Of a stretch of 64,000 bases of DNA, positions 29,218 to 47,549 are shown piece by piece. This stretch comes from an uncultured Pelagibacteraceae bacterium. Lineage in GTDB: Bacteria; Pseudomonadota; Alphaproteobacteria; Pelagibacterales; Pelagibacteraceae. The notes under the pieces were generated by a model. That model had not been told where the DNA came from, ran no database searches, and saw only the letters and a program-made list of their open reading frames with translations. The position numbers and the translations under genes are program-made. Positions within the stretch are counted from its first letter, which is position 1, and each line of letters starts with the position of its first letter. The stretch covers positions 1-64,000 of the forward strand of contig CACHHJ010000002.1 of NCBI GenBank assembly GCA_902579585.1. Direction: 5' to 3'.

Positions 29218-30258
29218 CTATTTGTTGGAAGAGGAGATAAAATTCCATCTACAATCAAAACTTGGAATGAAAATTCCAGATAAATTTGTATTACCAAAGC
29301 TAGTTTCTAAAACTTTTGTCCAATTTTTAATTTGCTTTGGTTTTTTGTCCTGACATCCGACTTGAGCGGTTAGAGCTCCACCTTTTTTTAAAATTCTTTT
29401 TAAGCCTTTCATATTACGCTTTGCTAAATCTATGCAATATTGATCATCATTAAGATCTACAAATATATGATCATATTTAGAGTCCTCGATAGATTTGATG
29501 CTTTTAAATGCATCACCCCAATATGATTTTACTTTATTACTTTTTTTAATTCTTGATGTGATTTTAGGCAAATGCTTATAACTAAGTTCAACAACTTGTG
29601 GATCGAGTTCAAACCAATCAACAAAATTAAAATTATTTTGTAAACATTCTCTAACTACCCCACCGTCACCACCACCTATTACTGCTGCAATACCTTTTTT
29701 TTCACAAATACTGGTTCCAGATTTAACAAAAGTAGAACTATAAAGTTTTTCATCTTTTTCTGAAACTTGAAGCTCATCATCAATGAATAAAGCATTGCCA
29801 AACTCCTCGAGATTCAAAATCTCTAATTTTTGACCAACTTTTGAAACTAGTTTTTCCAAAATATCATTTACAACATAATATTTTTTTTGTCCTGGAGTGC
29901 TATAGATATCATCCTTTAAAGCAACACTACTTCTATCAAAATTATTAACAATTATTCTCTTATGATCTATTTCTTTTTTTAAAATATTTAAAGCTACTCG
30001 TGGTGAAATTTTACCACATGTAAAAAAGTCGAAGCTTACAACTCCTCTTTCTGGAAAAGTATGAAAACTCATATGACTTTCTGCTAATAAAGCTACAGAT
30101 GTGAAGCCTTGTGGTTCAAATTTGTGACTAGAAATTTTTAGCAATTCAACATTTGCTTTTTTTGAAATTTTGTAAAAAATCTTTTCGTAGAAATCGGGTG
30201 GATAATCTTTTTTTACCCCAAGAAAGTCTAGTGTGATATGCTCACCAACTTTTATCAT
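29218..30258 (-). CDS. speDE: SpeD-SpeE fusion: S-adenosylmethionine decarboxylase + aminopropyltransferase
   Basis: Single chain of 346 aa. Residues 1-110 are a class 1b AdoMet decarboxylase: LLAESHMSFHTFPERG with the processing site Glu60-Ser61 (pyruvoyl precursor), His66 and FDFFTCG Cys81, at the same spacing as Ser63/His68/Cys83 of the Thermotoga enzyme. Residues 125-346 are a spermidine synthase-like domain: IDDELQVSEKDEKLY, AAVIGGGDGGVVREC at 191-205, FELDPQVVEL, YWGDAF and DHIFVDLNDDQ. It should decarboxylate SAM and use the product to aminopropylate a polyamine, releasing MTA. The acceptor is not certain because some SpeE positions differ (DD for DG, YS for YH). The aldolase gene ends 7 bases upstream. 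Confidence 0.9.
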   Translation of the reverse strand: MIKVGEHITLDFLGVKKDYPPDFYEKIFYKISKKANVELLKISSHKFEPQGFTSVALLAESHMSFHTFPERGVVSFDFFTCGKISPRVALNILKKEIDHKRIIVNNFDRSSVALKDDIYSTPGQKKYYVVNDILEKLVSKVGQKLEILNLEEFGNALFIDDELQVSEKDEKLYSSTFVKSGTSICEKKGIAAVIGGGDGGVVRECLQNNFNFVDWFELDPQVVELSYKHLPKITSRIKKSNKVKSYWGDAFKSIKSIEDSKYDHIFVDLNDDQYCIDLAKRNMKGLKRILKKGGALTAQVGCQDKKPKQIKNWTKVLETSFGNTNLSGIFIPSFDCRWNFISSSNK

Positions 30259-30265
30259 TATAAAA

Positions 30266-30910
30266 TTAATCCTTTTTATAATTTTTCATCTTATCCAAAA
30301 CAATTTTCATTTCTCTTTTTGAAAGCAGTTTAGGTATTCCAATTCTTATTGCATTTATATATTGATGGCAAATATTTTCGACCTCTTGCGCAAGCTCAAA
30401 AGCATTATCTAAATTTTTTCCAAAAGTTATTTGACCGTGATTAGACATTAGACATGCTGATCTATTTTTAAGTGCTGATAAAATATTCTTTGATAAATTT
30501 CTTGTTCCAAAAGTAGCGTATTTAGCGCATTTTATGTCTTCTCCTCCGGCTACACCGACCATGTAATGAAAGGCAGGAATGTTTTTTTTATGTGTGGAAA
30601 CAGCCGTAGCACACGTAGAATGTGCATGCACTATAGCTTTAGCGTCAACTTTATTAACATAAATATCTTGGTGAAATCGCCATTCTGAAGACGGTTTTTG
30701 CTTTTTTTTGTCGAATCGACCTTTTAAGGAAACAAAAACAATATCTCTCGGTTTTAATACAGAATATTTAACTCCAGAAGGAGTAATATAAAAACCATTA
30801 ATATTTCCTTCATTTGCTCTTACGGAAATATTTCCTGATCTTAATGCAGACAAATTTGTTGTGTTCAATTTTTTTGCATATTTAATGACCTGTGCTCTAA
30901 GTTTTTTCAT
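30266..30910 (-). CDS. Class II aldolase, FucA-like; probable Ald2-type 5-methylthioribulose-1-phosphate aldolase
   Basis: Zinc-dependent class II aldolase/adducin-family protein of 214 aa. It carries the FucA-type catalytic Glu in PSSEWRFHQDIY, the zinc pair in AIVHAHSTCATAVS, the AFHYMVGVAGGEDI and YATFGTRNLS segments, and the third His in MSNHGQITFG. These segments are very close to E. coli fuculose-1-phosphate aldolase. Its position between mtnA (ATGA overlap) and speDE suggests the substrate is 5-methylthioribulose-1-phosphate, split to DHAP and a methylthio-aldehyde (DHAP shunt). An MtnB dehydratase is the alternative, but it would need mtnC/mtnD, which are not here. Confidence 0.78.
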   Translation of the reverse strand: MKKLRAQVIKYAKKLNTTNLSALRSGNISVRANEGNINGFYITPSGVKYSVLKPRDIVFVSLKGRFDKKKQKPSSEWRFHQDIYVNKVDAKAIVHAHSTCATAVSTHKKNIPAFHYMVGVAGGEDIKCAKYATFGTRNLSKNILSALKNRSACLMSNHGQITFGKNLDNAFELAQEVENICHQYINAIRIGIPKLLSKREMKIVLDKMKNYKKD

Positions 30911-31977
30911 TTAAATAAACCTTTTAAACCTTCTGAAGATGCTTCGCAGATGCCTTTTTCCGTTATCAGTCCCGTGACATACTTAGCAGGAGTAATATCA
31001 AATGCTAAATTCATAGCTTTACTTTTTTGGGGATAAATCAAAATTTTTGTTAATTTATTATTTTTATCTAAACCTTCTATAAAGGATAGTTCTTCTGAAT
31101 TTCTCTCCTCTATAGGAATATCTTTGAAATTTTTTAAATTCCAATCAATTGTTGAACTCGGTAGAGCAACATAAAAAGGAACTTTGTTATCATAAGCAGC
31201 TAAAGCTTTAAGATAAGTTCCAACCTTATTAGCTACATCTCCAGAGGCAAGAGTTCTATCTGTTCCTGTGATACACATGTCCACCTCTCCTCTTTGCATT
31301 AGAATTCCTCCAGTATTATCAGCAATAATAGTATTTGGTATTCCTTCTTCGTTAAGTTCGTAAGATGTTAAATTAGCTCCTTGATTTCTTGGCCTGGTTT
31401 CATCCACCCAAACATGGAGTTTAATTCCATTTTGGTGGGCATGATAAATTGGTGAAGTAGCAGTACCCCAATCAATAGTTGCAAGCCATCCTGCATTACA
31501 ATGTGTTAAAATGTTTATTGTATCTTTTTTCTTTTTATAAATTTTCTCAATTATTTTTAATCCGTTTAATCCAATATTTTTACAAAAACTTATATCTTCT
31601 TCACAGATAGCATGAGCTTCATTGATTGCAATTTTTAAAATTTCCTTACTATTAACCCCTGATAATTTTTTCATCATTCTATCAACTGCCCATTTTAAAT
31701 TTATTGCAGTTGGTCTCGATTTGATTAAGTCTTCACTAGCTTTTTTAAGAAATGACTGATCATTATTTTCAATTATGGATAACACTAAACCATAGGCGGC
31801 AGTAGCCCCAATTAATGGTGCACCTCTTACTTCCATTGTCTTAATTGCATTAATAGAGTCTTTAATATTTTTTAAATCTTTAATTATAAATTGATGAGGA
31901 AGTTTTGTTTGATCTATAATTTTAACAATATTATTCTCAAACCAAATTGTTCTAAATTCTTTTCCGTTTATGTGCAT
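30907..31977 (-). CDS. mtnA: 5-Methylthioribose-1-phosphate isomerase
   Basis: Converts MTR-1-P to MTRu-1-P. Hallmarks are MEVRGAPLIGATAAYG near residue 50, LTHCNAGWLATIDWGTAT with the catalytic Cys, WVDETRPRNQGANLT, and CITGTDRTLASGDVANKVGTY with the catalytic Asp. The track ORF extends into mtnP, but the ATG at 31977 (MHINGKEFRTIWF) gives the usual N-terminus and 356 aa, overlapping the mtnP stop by one base. It overlaps the aldolase gene by ATGA at its 3' end, so the MTA genes are tightly coupled. Confidence 0.94.
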   Translation of the reverse strand: MHINGKEFRTIWFENNIVKIIDQTKLPHQFIIKDLKNIKDSINAIKTMEVRGAPLIGATAAYGLVLSIIENNDQSFLKKASEDLIKSRPTAINLKWAVDRMMKKLSGVNSKEILKIAINEAHAICEEDISFCKNIGLNGLKIIEKIYKKKKDTINILTHCNAGWLATIDWGTATSPIYHAHQNGIKLHVWVDETRPRNQGANLTSYELNEEGIPNTIIADNTGGILMQRGEVDMCITGTDRTLASGDVANKVGTYLKALAAYDNKVPFYVALPSSTIDWNLKNFKDIPIEERNSEELSFIEGLDKNNKLTKILIYPQKSKAMNLAFDITPAKYVTGLITEKGICEASSEGLKGLFK

Positions 31978-32849
31978 TATTTTTTTAAAACTCTTCCAGC
32001 AATATACTCTAATTTCTTTATTGTTTTTTTTGTTCTTAATTTTGGATCCGTGATTATAGCGGTATCTAAACAATTGTTTGCAGGATCCTTATCAACTGCA
32101 AAATCTTTGAAAGTTTTAATAACTTCTTTAACCATATTTTGTGCATTCTCTGCATTCTTTTGAAGAGTTTTAATCACCATTGAAACATCAACTTCATCAT
32201 GTTCGGAATGCCAACAATCGTAATCGGTGACCATTGCAACTGTACAATATCTTATCTCGGCTTCTCTTGCTAATTTGGCTTCTGGCATATTTGTCATACC
32301 TATTACATCTGCACTCCATGATCTATATAAATTCGACTCTGCTAAAGTTGAAAACTGTGGTCCTTCCATAACAACATAAGTTCCTCCCATTTGATAATCA
32401 ATATTTAATTTTTTTAAAGCAGCTTCACAACACTCCCCCAAACCTTCGCTTGTAGGTTTTGCCATTGAAACATGAGCTACTATCTCTTCATCAAAAAATG
32501 TTTTGTCTCTGGAGAAAGTTCTATCAATAAACTGATCAACAATTACAAAAGTTCCAGGGCTCAGGTTTTCTTTTAAAGAACCAACTGCTGATACTGATAT
32601 TATGTCAGTGACACCTTGTTGTTTCATTGCATCAATATTTGCTCTAAAATTTATATTGGTTGGGCTTATTTTGTGACCTCTAGAATGTCGTGGAACAAAA
32701 CTTATATCATTTCCTTTAAACTTTGCTGTCATAATATCATCTGAGGGTTGTCCCCAGGAAGTTTTAACTTTTTTCCACTTAGTTTTTTGAAAACCTTCCA
32801 TGTTGTAAAGACCGCTTCCACCAATTATCCCAAGCTTTCTATTTTTCAT
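31977..32849 (-). CDS. mtnP: 5'-Methylthioadenosine phosphorylase
   Basis: Phosphorolytic cleavage of MTA to adenine and 5-methylthioribose-1-phosphate. The 290-aa protein has the MTAP/PNP class II motifs: GGSGLYNMEGF, the phosphate site FVPRHSRGHKISP, VSAVGSLKENLSPG, MEGPQFSTLAES and VIGMTNMPEAKLAREAEI, with VTDYDCWH favouring MTAP over purine nucleoside phosphorylase. It is the first gene of the minus-strand mtnP-mtnA-aldolase-speDE unit. Divergent apt starts 43 bases away and would reuse the adenine product. Confidence 0.94.
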   Translation of the reverse strand: MKNRKLGIIGGSGLYNMEGFQKTKWKKVKTSWGQPSDDIMTAKFKGNDISFVPRHSRGHKISPTNINFRANIDAMKQQGVTDIISVSAVGSLKENLSPGTFVIVDQFIDRTFSRDKTFFDEEIVAHVSMAKPTSEGLGECCEAALKKLNIDYQMGGTYVVMEGPQFSTLAESNLYRSWSADVIGMTNMPEAKLAREAEIRYCTVAMVTDYDCWHSEHDEVDVSMVIKTLQKNAENAQNMVKEVIKTFKDFAVDKDPANNCLDTAIITDPKLRTKKTIKKLEYIAGRVLKK

Positions 32850-44409: not shown

Positions 44410-45075
44410 TTAAGCAGCTGCTTTTAAGCTATGCTTCTCAACCATACCACTTAAAAAATTCCATAAGAACTTAGCTGTAGACAAAGCAGCTTTTTCGGCT
44501 TTCTTTTGTTCTTTCTTAGAAAGACCGTCTAATAACTTTTCGCATGCTTTTCTATGAAGAACATCTGCAGCTTTGTGAGCTTCAAAGAACTCAAGACCTT
44601 TTTTTGAACTTACGCCGTAATGTTTTTTGAGCCCTTTGATTTTTGTGTCAGCAATTTCTGGTATTTGTCTTTCGTACGTATACAAAGAGGCGAGACCTTC
44701 GGCATATGATTTTCTACCTTGTTTAAAAAAATTATCTATCATTCTTTTTGTAAAAGACTCCTGTTTAGCCTTCTCAATTTTATTTTTATCTGCACCAACG
44801 CTTAATGCAAAATTTTTCCATAACTTTGGATGATCTCCATTTGGGTTTTCTTCGTCTTGCAAATTTTCTAATAAAATTTTCCTTTTTTCAATATCTTCAC
44901 AAATAGAATGTGTAGCGGAGATATATCTTGGGAAAGCTTTAACGTGTTGATAATACTGTTCGGCATAATCCTTAATAATTTCTCTCGTTAGCTTTCCATC
45001 ATTCCATGATTTATAAAAAGGATGATTTAGTAAGTGATACTTGTCTAATTTTTTATTTAATTGTTTTGAAAACAT
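44410..45075 (-). CDS. CADD-family heme-oxygenase-like diiron protein, probable self-sacrificing pABA synthase
   Basis: Protein of 221 aa in the TenA/heme-oxygenase-like fold, closely patterned on Chlamydia CADD: LLNHPFYKSWNDGKLT, DYAEQYYQHVKAFPRYIS, LENLQDEENPNGDHPKLW, LYTYERQIPEIADTKIKGL and FFEAHKAADVLH. Aligned to the C. trachomatis protein as I recall it, the diiron ligands become Glu75, His82, Glu135, His167, Asp171 and His174, and the residues consumed to build p-aminobenzoate, Tyr27 and Lys152, become Tyr21 and Lys145. All are present. A strong AGGAGG ribosome site precedes the ATG. It would supply pABA for folate without the chorismate route. Confidence 0.85.
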   Translation of the reverse strand: MFSKQLNKKLDKYHLLNHPFYKSWNDGKLTREIIKDYAEQYYQHVKAFPRYISATHSICEDIEKRKILLENLQDEENPNGDHPKLWKNFALSVGADKNKIEKAKQESFTKRMIDNFFKQGRKSYAEGLASLYTYERQIPEIADTKIKGLKKHYGVSSKKGLEFFEAHKAADVLHRKACEKLLDGLSKKEQKKAEKAALSTAKFLWNFLSGMVEKHSLKAAA

Positions 45076-45144
45076 ATTGTTCCTCCTAAGTCACCACTTT
45101 AATTTAATTTAAAAAATTAACAATTAAAAAAATAATCCACAACT

Positions 45145-46377
45145 TTAGATTGTTACTTCTTTTCTTAGTGGTTTTTCGTCAATTGGAAGGTGAAGCAGTG
45201 TTGCAACAAACGATAAAATTATAGCTAAATACCATGCATAGTCATAATTGCCGAAGATATCATAAAAAACTCCTCCTAAATATGCTCCTAAAAAAGATCC
45301 TATTTGGTGATTTAAAAAAACTATACCAAAAAGCATTGAAAGATTTTTGGCGCCAAAAACTTGAGCAACAATACCGTTTGTTGCTGGCACTGTTGCTAAC
45401 CATAACAGTCCAAAAGTAATTCCGAAAGCTATAGCTGAAATATTTGATGGAGGTAAAAATATGAATAGCATTATAGAAATTGCCCTAAAAAAATATAGTC
45501 CAGCCAATAACATTTTTTTACTGTACTTATCGCTTAAATAACCCATTATCAAAACACCTATTATGTTAAATAATCCTATTAATGATAAGATTGCAAAACC
45601 TGTCCAATCATCGAGTCCTTTATCTTGAACATATCTTGGAACGTGAGTTGCGACCAAAGTGATTTGAAATCCACAAACAAAAAAACCTAAAACTAATAAT
45701 CTAAAACCTTTGTGTGCAAAAGAATCTTTGAGAACTTTTACAACGCTTTCACTTTTTTCAGTCTCTTTATTTAAACTATATTCTTCCTTTTGACTTTCGG
45801 GTTTTTTTAAGAAAAAGCCCGGAATACACATTACAAATAAAATTATTGCAAATACTGTAAAAGTGCTCTGCCAACCTACTTCAACCATTAAATATTTTGT
45901 AAGGACAGGAAAAATAAACATTCCTAGTCCACCAAAAGCAGTTACATATCCAGCTGCTTTACCTCTATTTTGATTTGGAAAATGTTTTGTTACTACTGGA
46001 GCTAAAATTGTTCCTGCAGCTCCCCCTAAACCGATACCAACTAAGAGACCTAGATTTATTTGAAACCATGTTCCAGTGTTAAAATTATTTCCTAATGCCA
46101 AAACACCAACGCCGTAAACAATTAGAGTAAATATTACCATTTTACTTCCGCCATGCTTATCAGCAAATCTTCCAAAAATAGGTGTAACAATTCCCCATAT
46201 CAAAGCATGCAAGGCTATAGCAAGACCAAACTCTGTGTTAGAAATTCCACAATCAATCTCAAAGTCGCTAGAAAATAACCCAAAGGTTTGTCTAACACCC
46301 ATTGTGACATTAACCACCAAACAAGCTGCAATTAAAGTTATGAACGCTGTCTTATTAGGAAAAAATTTTGATGTCAT
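45145..46377 (-). CDS. Major facilitator superfamily transporter
   Basis: Twelve-helix carrier of 410 aa resembling the oxalate/formate and monocarboxylate branch: GVRQTFGLFSSDF in helix 1, the loop motif FGRFADKHGGSKMV, GLGGAAGTILAPVVTKHFPNQNRGKAAG in helices 4-5, and MGYLSDKYSKKML between helices 8 and 9. The substrate cannot be assigned. It overlaps metC by 4 bases, so the two are co-translated and the carrier might move a sulfur or amino compound, which is inference. Confidence 0.84.
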   Translation of the reverse strand: MTSKFFPNKTAFITLIAACLVVNVTMGVRQTFGLFSSDFEIDCGISNTEFGLAIALHALIWGIVTPIFGRFADKHGGSKMVIFTLIVYGVGVLALGNNFNTGTWFQINLGLLVGIGLGGAAGTILAPVVTKHFPNQNRGKAAGYVTAFGGLGMFIFPVLTKYLMVEVGWQSTFTVFAIILFVMCIPGFFLKKPESQKEEYSLNKETEKSESVVKVLKDSFAHKGFRLLVLGFFVCGFQITLVATHVPRYVQDKGLDDWTGFAILSLIGLFNIIGVLIMGYLSDKYSKKMLLAGLYFFRAISIMLFIFLPPSNISAIAFGITFGLLWLATVPATNGIVAQVFGAKNLSMLFGIVFLNHQIGSFLGAYLGGVFYDIFGNYDYAWYLAIILSFVATLLHLPIDEKPLRKEVTI

Positions 46378-47549
46378 TTAATCTTTTTAATAGCTTTTGC
46401 TAAATCTTCAATCAAATCTTTCGGATCTTCTAATCCAACATGGAATCTCACAATGTGATGATTGGCCTTTAAGTATTTCCTGTAAACTCTTTGAATTACA
46501 TGACTTTGATATAAGGCTAAACTCTCAAAACCACCCCAGCTTTGACCTATTCCAAATAATTTCAATGAATTGATAAAATTATAAATTGAATTTTTTTTCT
46601 TACTTTCAATTATAACAGAAAATAACCCTGTGGAACCAGAATAGTATTTTTTCCAATTTTCATAATTAGAAGAACCCCTTTTAAAGGGATAAAGAATTTC
46701 TTTAATCTTTTTCTGTTTACTTAAAAAACTTATTACTTTTTTGGTATTTTCTTCATGTTTTTTAAGCCTCACGTCTAAAGTTCTTAACCCTCTTAAAACT
46801 AAGTAGGCATCATCTGGGGATGCTCTATAACCTAAAAGCTTATTACAAAATTTTACTTTTTCATAAACTTTTTTATTTACACATAAAGTACCAAGCATAA
46901 CATCTGAATGGCCAGAAAGGTATTTGGTTCCTGAAGAAATTGACATATCAAAACCTAATTTCAATGGTTTTAAAAATAAAGGAGTTCCCCAAGTGTTATC
47001 AATGGCTGTAATAATTTTCCTTTTTTTTGCTAATTTTATAATTTTACCAATGTCTTGAAATTCAAAAGTATTACTTCCTGGATTTTCTACAAATATCATT
47101 TTTGTTTTTTTATTTATTCTTTTTTCAAGAGTTGTTAAATCTTCTGGATTATAAAAATGAGTTTTTACATTAAAATCTTTTAGTAATTTTGAGGTAATAA
47201 TTCTAGTTGGTGAGTATACAGCATCTGTTACTATTATTTCGTCACCTGGTCTACAAATACTCATTATAGCTAATGAAACCGATCCAAAACCTGTGGGGGT
47301 TAAAAAGGTTCTATAACCTGATTCTAGTTCAGTAATAAAATTTTGTAATGCAATTGTGGTTTGGCTCCCTGCCCTTCCGTATTCATAGAAATTGACTTCG
47401 GTTCCTTTCTTAACCAAATTTTCATGATTTATTAATTCCTGCATACTTTTAAAGAAAACTGTTGAGTTTCTAACTACGGCTGGATTAGCTGATCTTGAAT
47501 TTTTATCTTGAGCTAAAAATTTTAGTTTTGTTATGTCGGAGTATTTCAT
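46374..47549 (-). CDS. metC: Cystathionine beta-lyase-like PLP enzyme
   Basis: Cys/Met-metabolism PLP enzyme of 391 aa. NFYEYGRAGSQTTIALQ, GFGSVSLAIM, FVENPGSNTFE, AIDNTWGTP and the PLP Lys in SISSGTKYLSGHSD are all in place, and GIGQSWGGFESL is the carboxylate-binding region typical of MetC. It should cleave cystathionine to homocysteine. It directly abuts the DUF2155 gene upstream and overlaps the MFS gene downstream. No riboswitch-size leader exists in front of it. Confidence 0.9.
   Translation of the reverse strand: MKYSDITKLKFLAQDKNSRSANPAVVRNSTVFFKSMQELINHENLVKKGTEVNFYEYGRAGSQTTIALQNFITELESGYRTFLTPTGFGSVSLAIMSICRPGDEIIVTDAVYSPTRIITSKLLKDFNVKTHFYNPEDLTTLEKRINKKTKMIFVENPGSNTFEFQDIGKIIKLAKKRKIITAIDNTWGTPLFLKPLKLGFDMSISSGTKYLSGHSDVMLGTLCVNKKVYEKVKFCNKLLGYRASPDDAYLVLRGLRTLDVRLKKHEENTKKVISFLSKQKKIKEILYPFKRGSSNYENWKKYYSGSTGLFSVIIESKKKNSIYNFINSLKLFGIGQSWGGFESLALYQSHVIQRVYRKYLKANHHIVRFHVGLEDPKDLIEDLAKAIKKIK

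Follow-up and report, generated by a model that had tools for sequence, protein, structure and literature searches.

A predicted self-sacrificing pABA synthase in SAR11 bacteria, its invariant Ala-Ala tail, and a locus where it is exchanged for pabBAC

The biochemistry of self-sacrificing pABA synthesis has been described for two close homologues of the protein considered here, CADD (CT610) of Chlamydia trachomatis, which is a Mn/Fe enzyme, and NePabS (NE1434) of Nitrosomonas europaea, which is an Fe/Fe enzyme of the same family (PMC11965152). In NePabS, Tyr41 is essential besides the sacrificed tyrosine and lysine, and Tyr45 and Trp99 are relay residues (PMC11965152). The choice of metal is set by two positions, which are Tyr/Tyr in CADD (Mn/Fe) and Phe/Phe in NePabS (Fe/Fe); the F148Y variant of NePabS alone is cambialistic, while F177Y alone prefers Mn/Fe (PMC11965152). 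The canonical PabB-PabA-PabC route leads to the same product with three catalytic enzymes that act on chorismate and glutamine and have no homology to CADD; in other SAR11 lineages, the genes for this route are found at the locus of CADD.

A CADD-type protein with the residues for self-sacrifice

The window analyzed here is a stretch of 64,000 nucleotides from an uncultured Pelagibacteraceae bacterium (GCA_902579585.1, contig CACHHJ010000002.1). It contains the following features:

44410..45075, minus strand: gene for a predicted CADD-type (self-sacrificing) pABA synthase of 221 amino acids plus stop (from TIGR04305, PDB matches and a structural model)
45013..45015, minus strand: codon for Tyr21, the predicted sacrificed tyrosine (CADD Tyr27, NePabS Tyr25; by alignment, invariant in 99 distinct SAR11 sequences)
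44641..44643, minus strand: codon for Lys145, the predicted amino donor (CADD Lys152, NePabS Lys159; by alignment, invariant)
44674..44676, minus strand: codon for Tyr134, metal-selectivity position 1 (CADD Tyr141, NePabS Phe148; by alignment and conservation, role from PMC11965152)
44587..44589, minus strand: codon for Phe163, metal-selectivity position 2 (CADD Tyr170, NePabS Phe177; by alignment and conservation, role from PMC11965152)

The reading frame starts with ATG, and its coordinates include the stop codon. By sequence and modelled fold, the product is a member of the known CADD-type family. A profile search matched residues 2-212 to TIGR04305 (fol_rel_CADD) with 309.6 bits and an E-value of 9.5e-93, where the cut-off is 200 bits, and a phmmer search of the PDB returned CADD (1rcw, 6.6e-48; 8va9, 1.9e-47) and the pABA synthase 9pj4 (4-aminobenzoate synthase, 1.4e-42), with PqqC (1.3e-9) and BesC (6e-4) far weaker. 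The protein falls below the family cut-offs for PqqC (56.4 of 240 bits), BesC (27 of 500) and TenA (22.9 of 130), and the E-values of its PqqC, TenA and UndA matches are far weaker than those for CADD. An AlphaFold2 model (pLDDT 90, pTM 0.88) has the heme-oxygenase-like helical fold with a predicted ligand set of 3 His and 3 carboxylates, and it superposes on C. trachomatis CADD (8va9) with a TM score of 0.90 and an rmsd of 1.8 Å, at 38-39% identity in the structural match. NePabS differs from the window protein by a loop of ~10 residues.

Alignment to CADD, with residue numbering taken from PMC11965152, gives an offset of 6 that becomes 7 past a one-residue gap. A sequence-only reading of this DNA had equated the sacrificed Tyr27 and Lys152 of CADD with Tyr21 and Lys145, and the formal alignment bears this out; NePabS has the same sacrificed residues. 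The same reading held that the six diiron ligands align exactly, and the presumed ligands do so: Glu75, His82, Glu135, His167, Asp171 and His174 align with the residues that we take to be the ligands in CADD (Glu81, His88, Glu142, His174, Asp178 and His181, with numbers derived from the offset) and are invariant in the 99 distinct SAR11 sequences. The essential Tyr41 of NePabS corresponds to Tyr37 in the window protein, and its relay residues Tyr45 and Trp99 to Tyr41 and Trp86. The window protein therefore has the sacrificed Tyr and Lys, the second Tyr, and the relay Trp and Tyr, and Tyr21, Tyr37, Tyr41, Trp86 and Lys145, together with the presumed ligands, are shared without exception by 99/99 distinct SAR11 sequences and by 5/5 alignable sequences from outside the group. 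C. trachomatis CADD shares with the window protein the sacrificed residues, the presumed ligands, and the Tyr43, Trp92 and Tyr141 positions, but its Tyr170 is replaced by Phe163.

This replacement makes the metal-selecting pair mixed. Tyr134/Phe163 is found in 99/99 distinct SAR11 CADDs and in 4/5 alignable outside sequences. The Mn/Fe subtype has Tyr at both positions, from which Phe163 departs in 99/99 SAR11 sequences, and the Fe/Fe subtype has Phe at both, from which Tyr134 departs. Where NePabS has two phenylalanines, the Tyr/Phe combination of the window protein is that of the cambialistic F148Y variant, and on this analogy SAR11 CADD is predicted to tolerate both Fe/Fe and Mn/Fe.

It is likely that the window protein synthesizes pABA by self-sacrifice. 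As in CADD and NePabS, a pair of metal ions supplied with O2 and a reductant would break the CA-CB bond of Tyr21, turning this residue into Gly; Lys145 would supply the nitrogen, and each polypeptide would form one pABA.

A strong ribosome site and a terminal Ala-Ala

Two further features lie at the ends of the gene:

45082..45087, minus strand: AGGAGG Shine-Dalgarno sequence, 6 nt from the ATG (-10.2 kcal/mol, best of 59 window ORFs)
44413..44418, minus strand: codons for Ala220-Ala221, a candidate ClpXP degron (99/99 distinct SAR11 CADDs end -AA)

The AGGAGG site had been singled out from the sequence as unusually strong. It indeed has the best anti-Shine-Dalgarno duplex energy among the window ORFs, and its strength extends across the clade, with GGAG ahead of CADD in 98.75% of 80 SAR11 genes versus 11% of 421 neighbouring ORFs, a background for which the best of several starts was allowed. 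Because each protein would be used once, many copies would be needed, and a strong ribosome site fits this demand and could secure high CADD output; strong ribosome sites also have causes other than a high demand for CADD copies.

At the other end of the gene, a terminal Ala-Ala is encoded at 126/126 SAR11 CADD loci versus 1/571 neighbouring ORFs, and by 3/368 ORFs in regions taken from two complete genomes, with proteins other than CADD ending in this way at a frequency of 0.2-0.8%. Entropy in the tails of the SAR11 CADDs is 0 at positions -1 and -2 and 1.4-2.8 bits at positions -3 to -10. Eight different codon pairs encode the Ala-Ala end, and for this reason a codon or terminator by-product was rejected as its origin. 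In the AlphaFold2 model the last seven residues (after 214) have no secondary structure, and pLDDT is 34 at the last residue, so that the 99 sequences and the model together describe an ssrA-like tail, in which a C-terminal Ala-Ala-COO- sits on a flexible segment. ClpXP degrons depend chiefly on their Ala-Ala-COO- end (PMC7652416), and changing Ala-Ala to Asp-Asp stabilizes NstA in Caulobacter, an alphaproteobacterium (PMC4470285). The ssrA-type ClpXP substrates NstA and CtrA of Caulobacter end in Ala-Ala as SAR11 CADD does, and the source genome has a permuted alpha-type tmRNA (G000:C17; L054 1468-1777, minus strand) with the tag ANNKFALAA, which likewise ends ALAA. This tag is shorter than that of E. 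coli. ClpX is found in 7/7 near-complete genomes tested.

By analogy with these substrates, the Ala-Ala tail of SAR11 CADD is plausibly a ClpXP degron through which used, and perhaps also unused, enzyme is removed, and we give this slightly better than even prospects; spent CADD would then probably be recycled through it. A role for the invariant tail as a dimer contact or a docking site for a partner is possible but somewhat doubtful, as the conservation in SAR11 CADDs of the helix end and KH motif ahead of the tail would suit such a contact, while the unstructured and poorly predicted last residues speak against it and constancy of the last two positions alone, with -3 to -10 varying freely, is how an ssrA-type degron behaves. 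If the tail is a degron, it is not a general property of the family, because C-termini outside SAR11 partly lack it: 3/7 end -AA (L138, L140 and L141, two of them from one family), L135, L136, L137 and L163 do not, and neither do the CADD of G709 and that of C. trachomatis, whose end was read from a primer (PMC1971073).

Absence of the chorismate route and exchange with pabBAC

A missing or costly chorismate-pABA route had been offered from the sequence as an explanation for so uneconomical an enzyme. As the source assembly (G000) is 61.7% complete, this question was answered with counts across the family, and absence of the pathway is shown through relatives. Among 297 Pelagibacteraceae genomes, CADD is present in 151, PabB in 84, and both in 0. 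Here PabB was called from at least two chorismate-binding genes per genome (TrpE and PabB), one genome whose partial CADD lies below the cut-off was scored as CADD, and G024, whose two pieces belong to a single broken gene, was left out of the PabB count. A Fisher test of this exclusion gives 3e-34, a value that overstates the evidence because the 297 genomes share ancestry and are not independent. A second chorismate-binding enzyme beside TrpE was found in 0/151 CADD genomes, and the source genome shows only TrpE, encoded together with trpG and trpD in one operon (named by sequence and by eye). A PabC-like gene (~255 residues) occurs only adjoining PabB. The gene for FolP, which consumes pABA, is present in 36/36 near-complete genomes tested, of the CADD and PabB kinds alike; folP and full-length clpX were not found in G000 at its 61.7% completeness. 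The proposed gap in the pathway is thus real in the relatives, where CADD-bearing genomes lack a complete pabABC set (0/151), with pabB and pabC missing and folP kept, and CADD-made pABA would feed the retained FolP. CADD is the apparent sole pABA source found in the source genome's genus and in most other non-Pelagibacter SAR11 genera, and the PabB set is carried mostly by genus g3. A cultured SAR11 isolate, HIMB058, also has CADD in its assembly (L063).

Neither CADD nor a second chorismate-binding gene was found in 62/297 genomes, most but not all of them incomplete. G047, G107 and G130 are near-complete SAR11 genomes of this kind, in which there exist gaps, undetected (third) routes or pABA uptake.

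Distant CADDs were sought at class and phylum level, and the nine CADD genomes outside SAR11 have at most one chorismate-binding gene each. Four near-complete CADD-bearing alphaproteobacteria (G454, G469, G548 and G450) have no PabB/TrpE-type chorismate-binding enzyme at all. Three other genomes (G492, G589 and G396) each have 9-10 weak CADD/HDO-like paralogues, mostly of ~50-98 bits, which are expansions of the CADD enzyme superfamily in Alphaproteobacteria.

Upstream of CADD, the window contains the left flank that is common to CADD and to the pabBAC operon of relatives:

45145..46377, minus strand: MFS transporter gene directly upstream of CADD (from locus comparison)
46374..47549, minus strand: gene for a CGS-like PLP enzyme, overlapping the MFS gene by 4 nt (from ORFs and locus comparison)

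The gene order in the window is CGS-MFS-CADD, and CGS-MFS precedes CADD in most SAR11 loci of several genera. In the PabB genomes G032, G045, G053, G108 and G043, pabB-pabA-pabC comes directly after CGS-MFS, and in G039 two small genes lie between them. The apr genes (named by sequence) are next after pabBAC, and at loci L064, L110 and L120 they come after CADD as well. A congener of the source genome, G005, has CGS-MFS-pabBAC with a left flank that matches the window gene for gene from PepA to CGS-MFS. CADD and pabBAC are exchanged in place at one locus. A contaminant contig is an unlikely source of the G005 arrangement because its left flank is in window gene order and its TrpE falls within genus g1, while the case of G056 is weaker (4.6 kb contig, 4% contamination). 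CADD has a different position in genera g5, g9 and g12, where it adjoins serC- and serA-like genes.

The MFS gene stays beside either pABA route across lineages, and its product may be a transporter of pABA or a related acid, or merely a stable neighbour. Unlike C. trachomatis CADD, the window CADD is not in a folate gene cluster; SAR11 CADD genes have no adjoining folate genes, and a folE-like gene was seen by eye ~5 kb away only in g5, g9 and g12. A search near the CADD gene for a riboswitch or other Rfam element gave one chance match and no element. Elsewhere in the window, one ORF (29218-30258) reads by eye as a fusion of a SpeD-like AdoMet decarboxylase with a spermidine synthase, and positions 30907-32849 hold MtnA-like and MtnP-like ORFs of methionine salvage that overlap by ~97 nt in different frames, the upstream start of the first probably being miscalled.

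In a TrpE tree, CADD is the label of the basal genera, and three label changes are needed. The SAR11 CADDs form one group (89/92 support), as do the SAR11 PabBs (100/100), which lie at a distance from the PabB of f2, a neighbouring family. The simplest reading is that CADD was ancestral in Pelagibacteraceae and that the compact pabBAC operon took its place in g3 and G005, and perhaps also in G056; the evidence for this direction is moderate because the tree rests on one gene and has several weak forks.

There is a small chance that pABA comes mainly from outside the cell, that CADD has another role, and that its exclusion of PabB is lineage history only. Near-complete SAR11 genomes with neither gene would fit this account, as would the dependence among genomes within a lineage and the large share of genus g3 in the PabB set, but lineage history sits poorly with three label changes in the TrpE tree and with exchange at the same locus within the source genome's own genus (G005) and, less surely, in g6. 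It is highly improbable that the protein is a conventional diiron oxidase or oxygenase (PqqC-, TenA- or BesC-like) that works catalytically on a small molecule and has kept Tyr and Lys by descent, for although the superfamily is diverse and the PqqC and TenA families match weakly, CADD models lead by >30 orders of magnitude in E-value, all self-sacrifice residues are invariant in the 99 distinct sequences, and the exclusion of PabB is perfect.

A possible make-use-recycle cycle in SAR11

In the literature searched, no paper linking CADD to SAR11 was found, and PMC12636525 contains no link of pab or CADD to SAR11 habitat genes. What is new is that CADD is used clade-wide and, in many SAR11 lineages, seems to be the only way to pABA; that it is exchanged with pabBAC at a single locus; that its metal-selecting pair is mixed; and that its Ala-Ala end never varies in SAR11. 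Self-sacrificing synthesis by CADD can be joined with these features in a single account, to which we assign an even chance: a one-shot synthase, made from a strong ribosome site and carrying its own ClpXP degron, would form a make-use-recycle cycle, repeatedly replaced by the three-gene route at the same site.

SAR11 bacteria rely heavily on folate for one-carbon oxidation, and strong pressure towards economy is thought to act on them. They are described as the most abundant group of heterotrophs in the ocean (PMC3160333, PMC12636525). If many of their lineages spend one protein on each pABA molecule that they make, this reaction would be among the commonest suicide chemistry in nature. The Ala-Ala tail suggests how the cost could be limited, with all amino acids recycled except one Tyr and one Lys, and the exchange of pabBAC and CADD at one locus sets the two strategies side by side in closely related genomes, as a comparison provided by nature.
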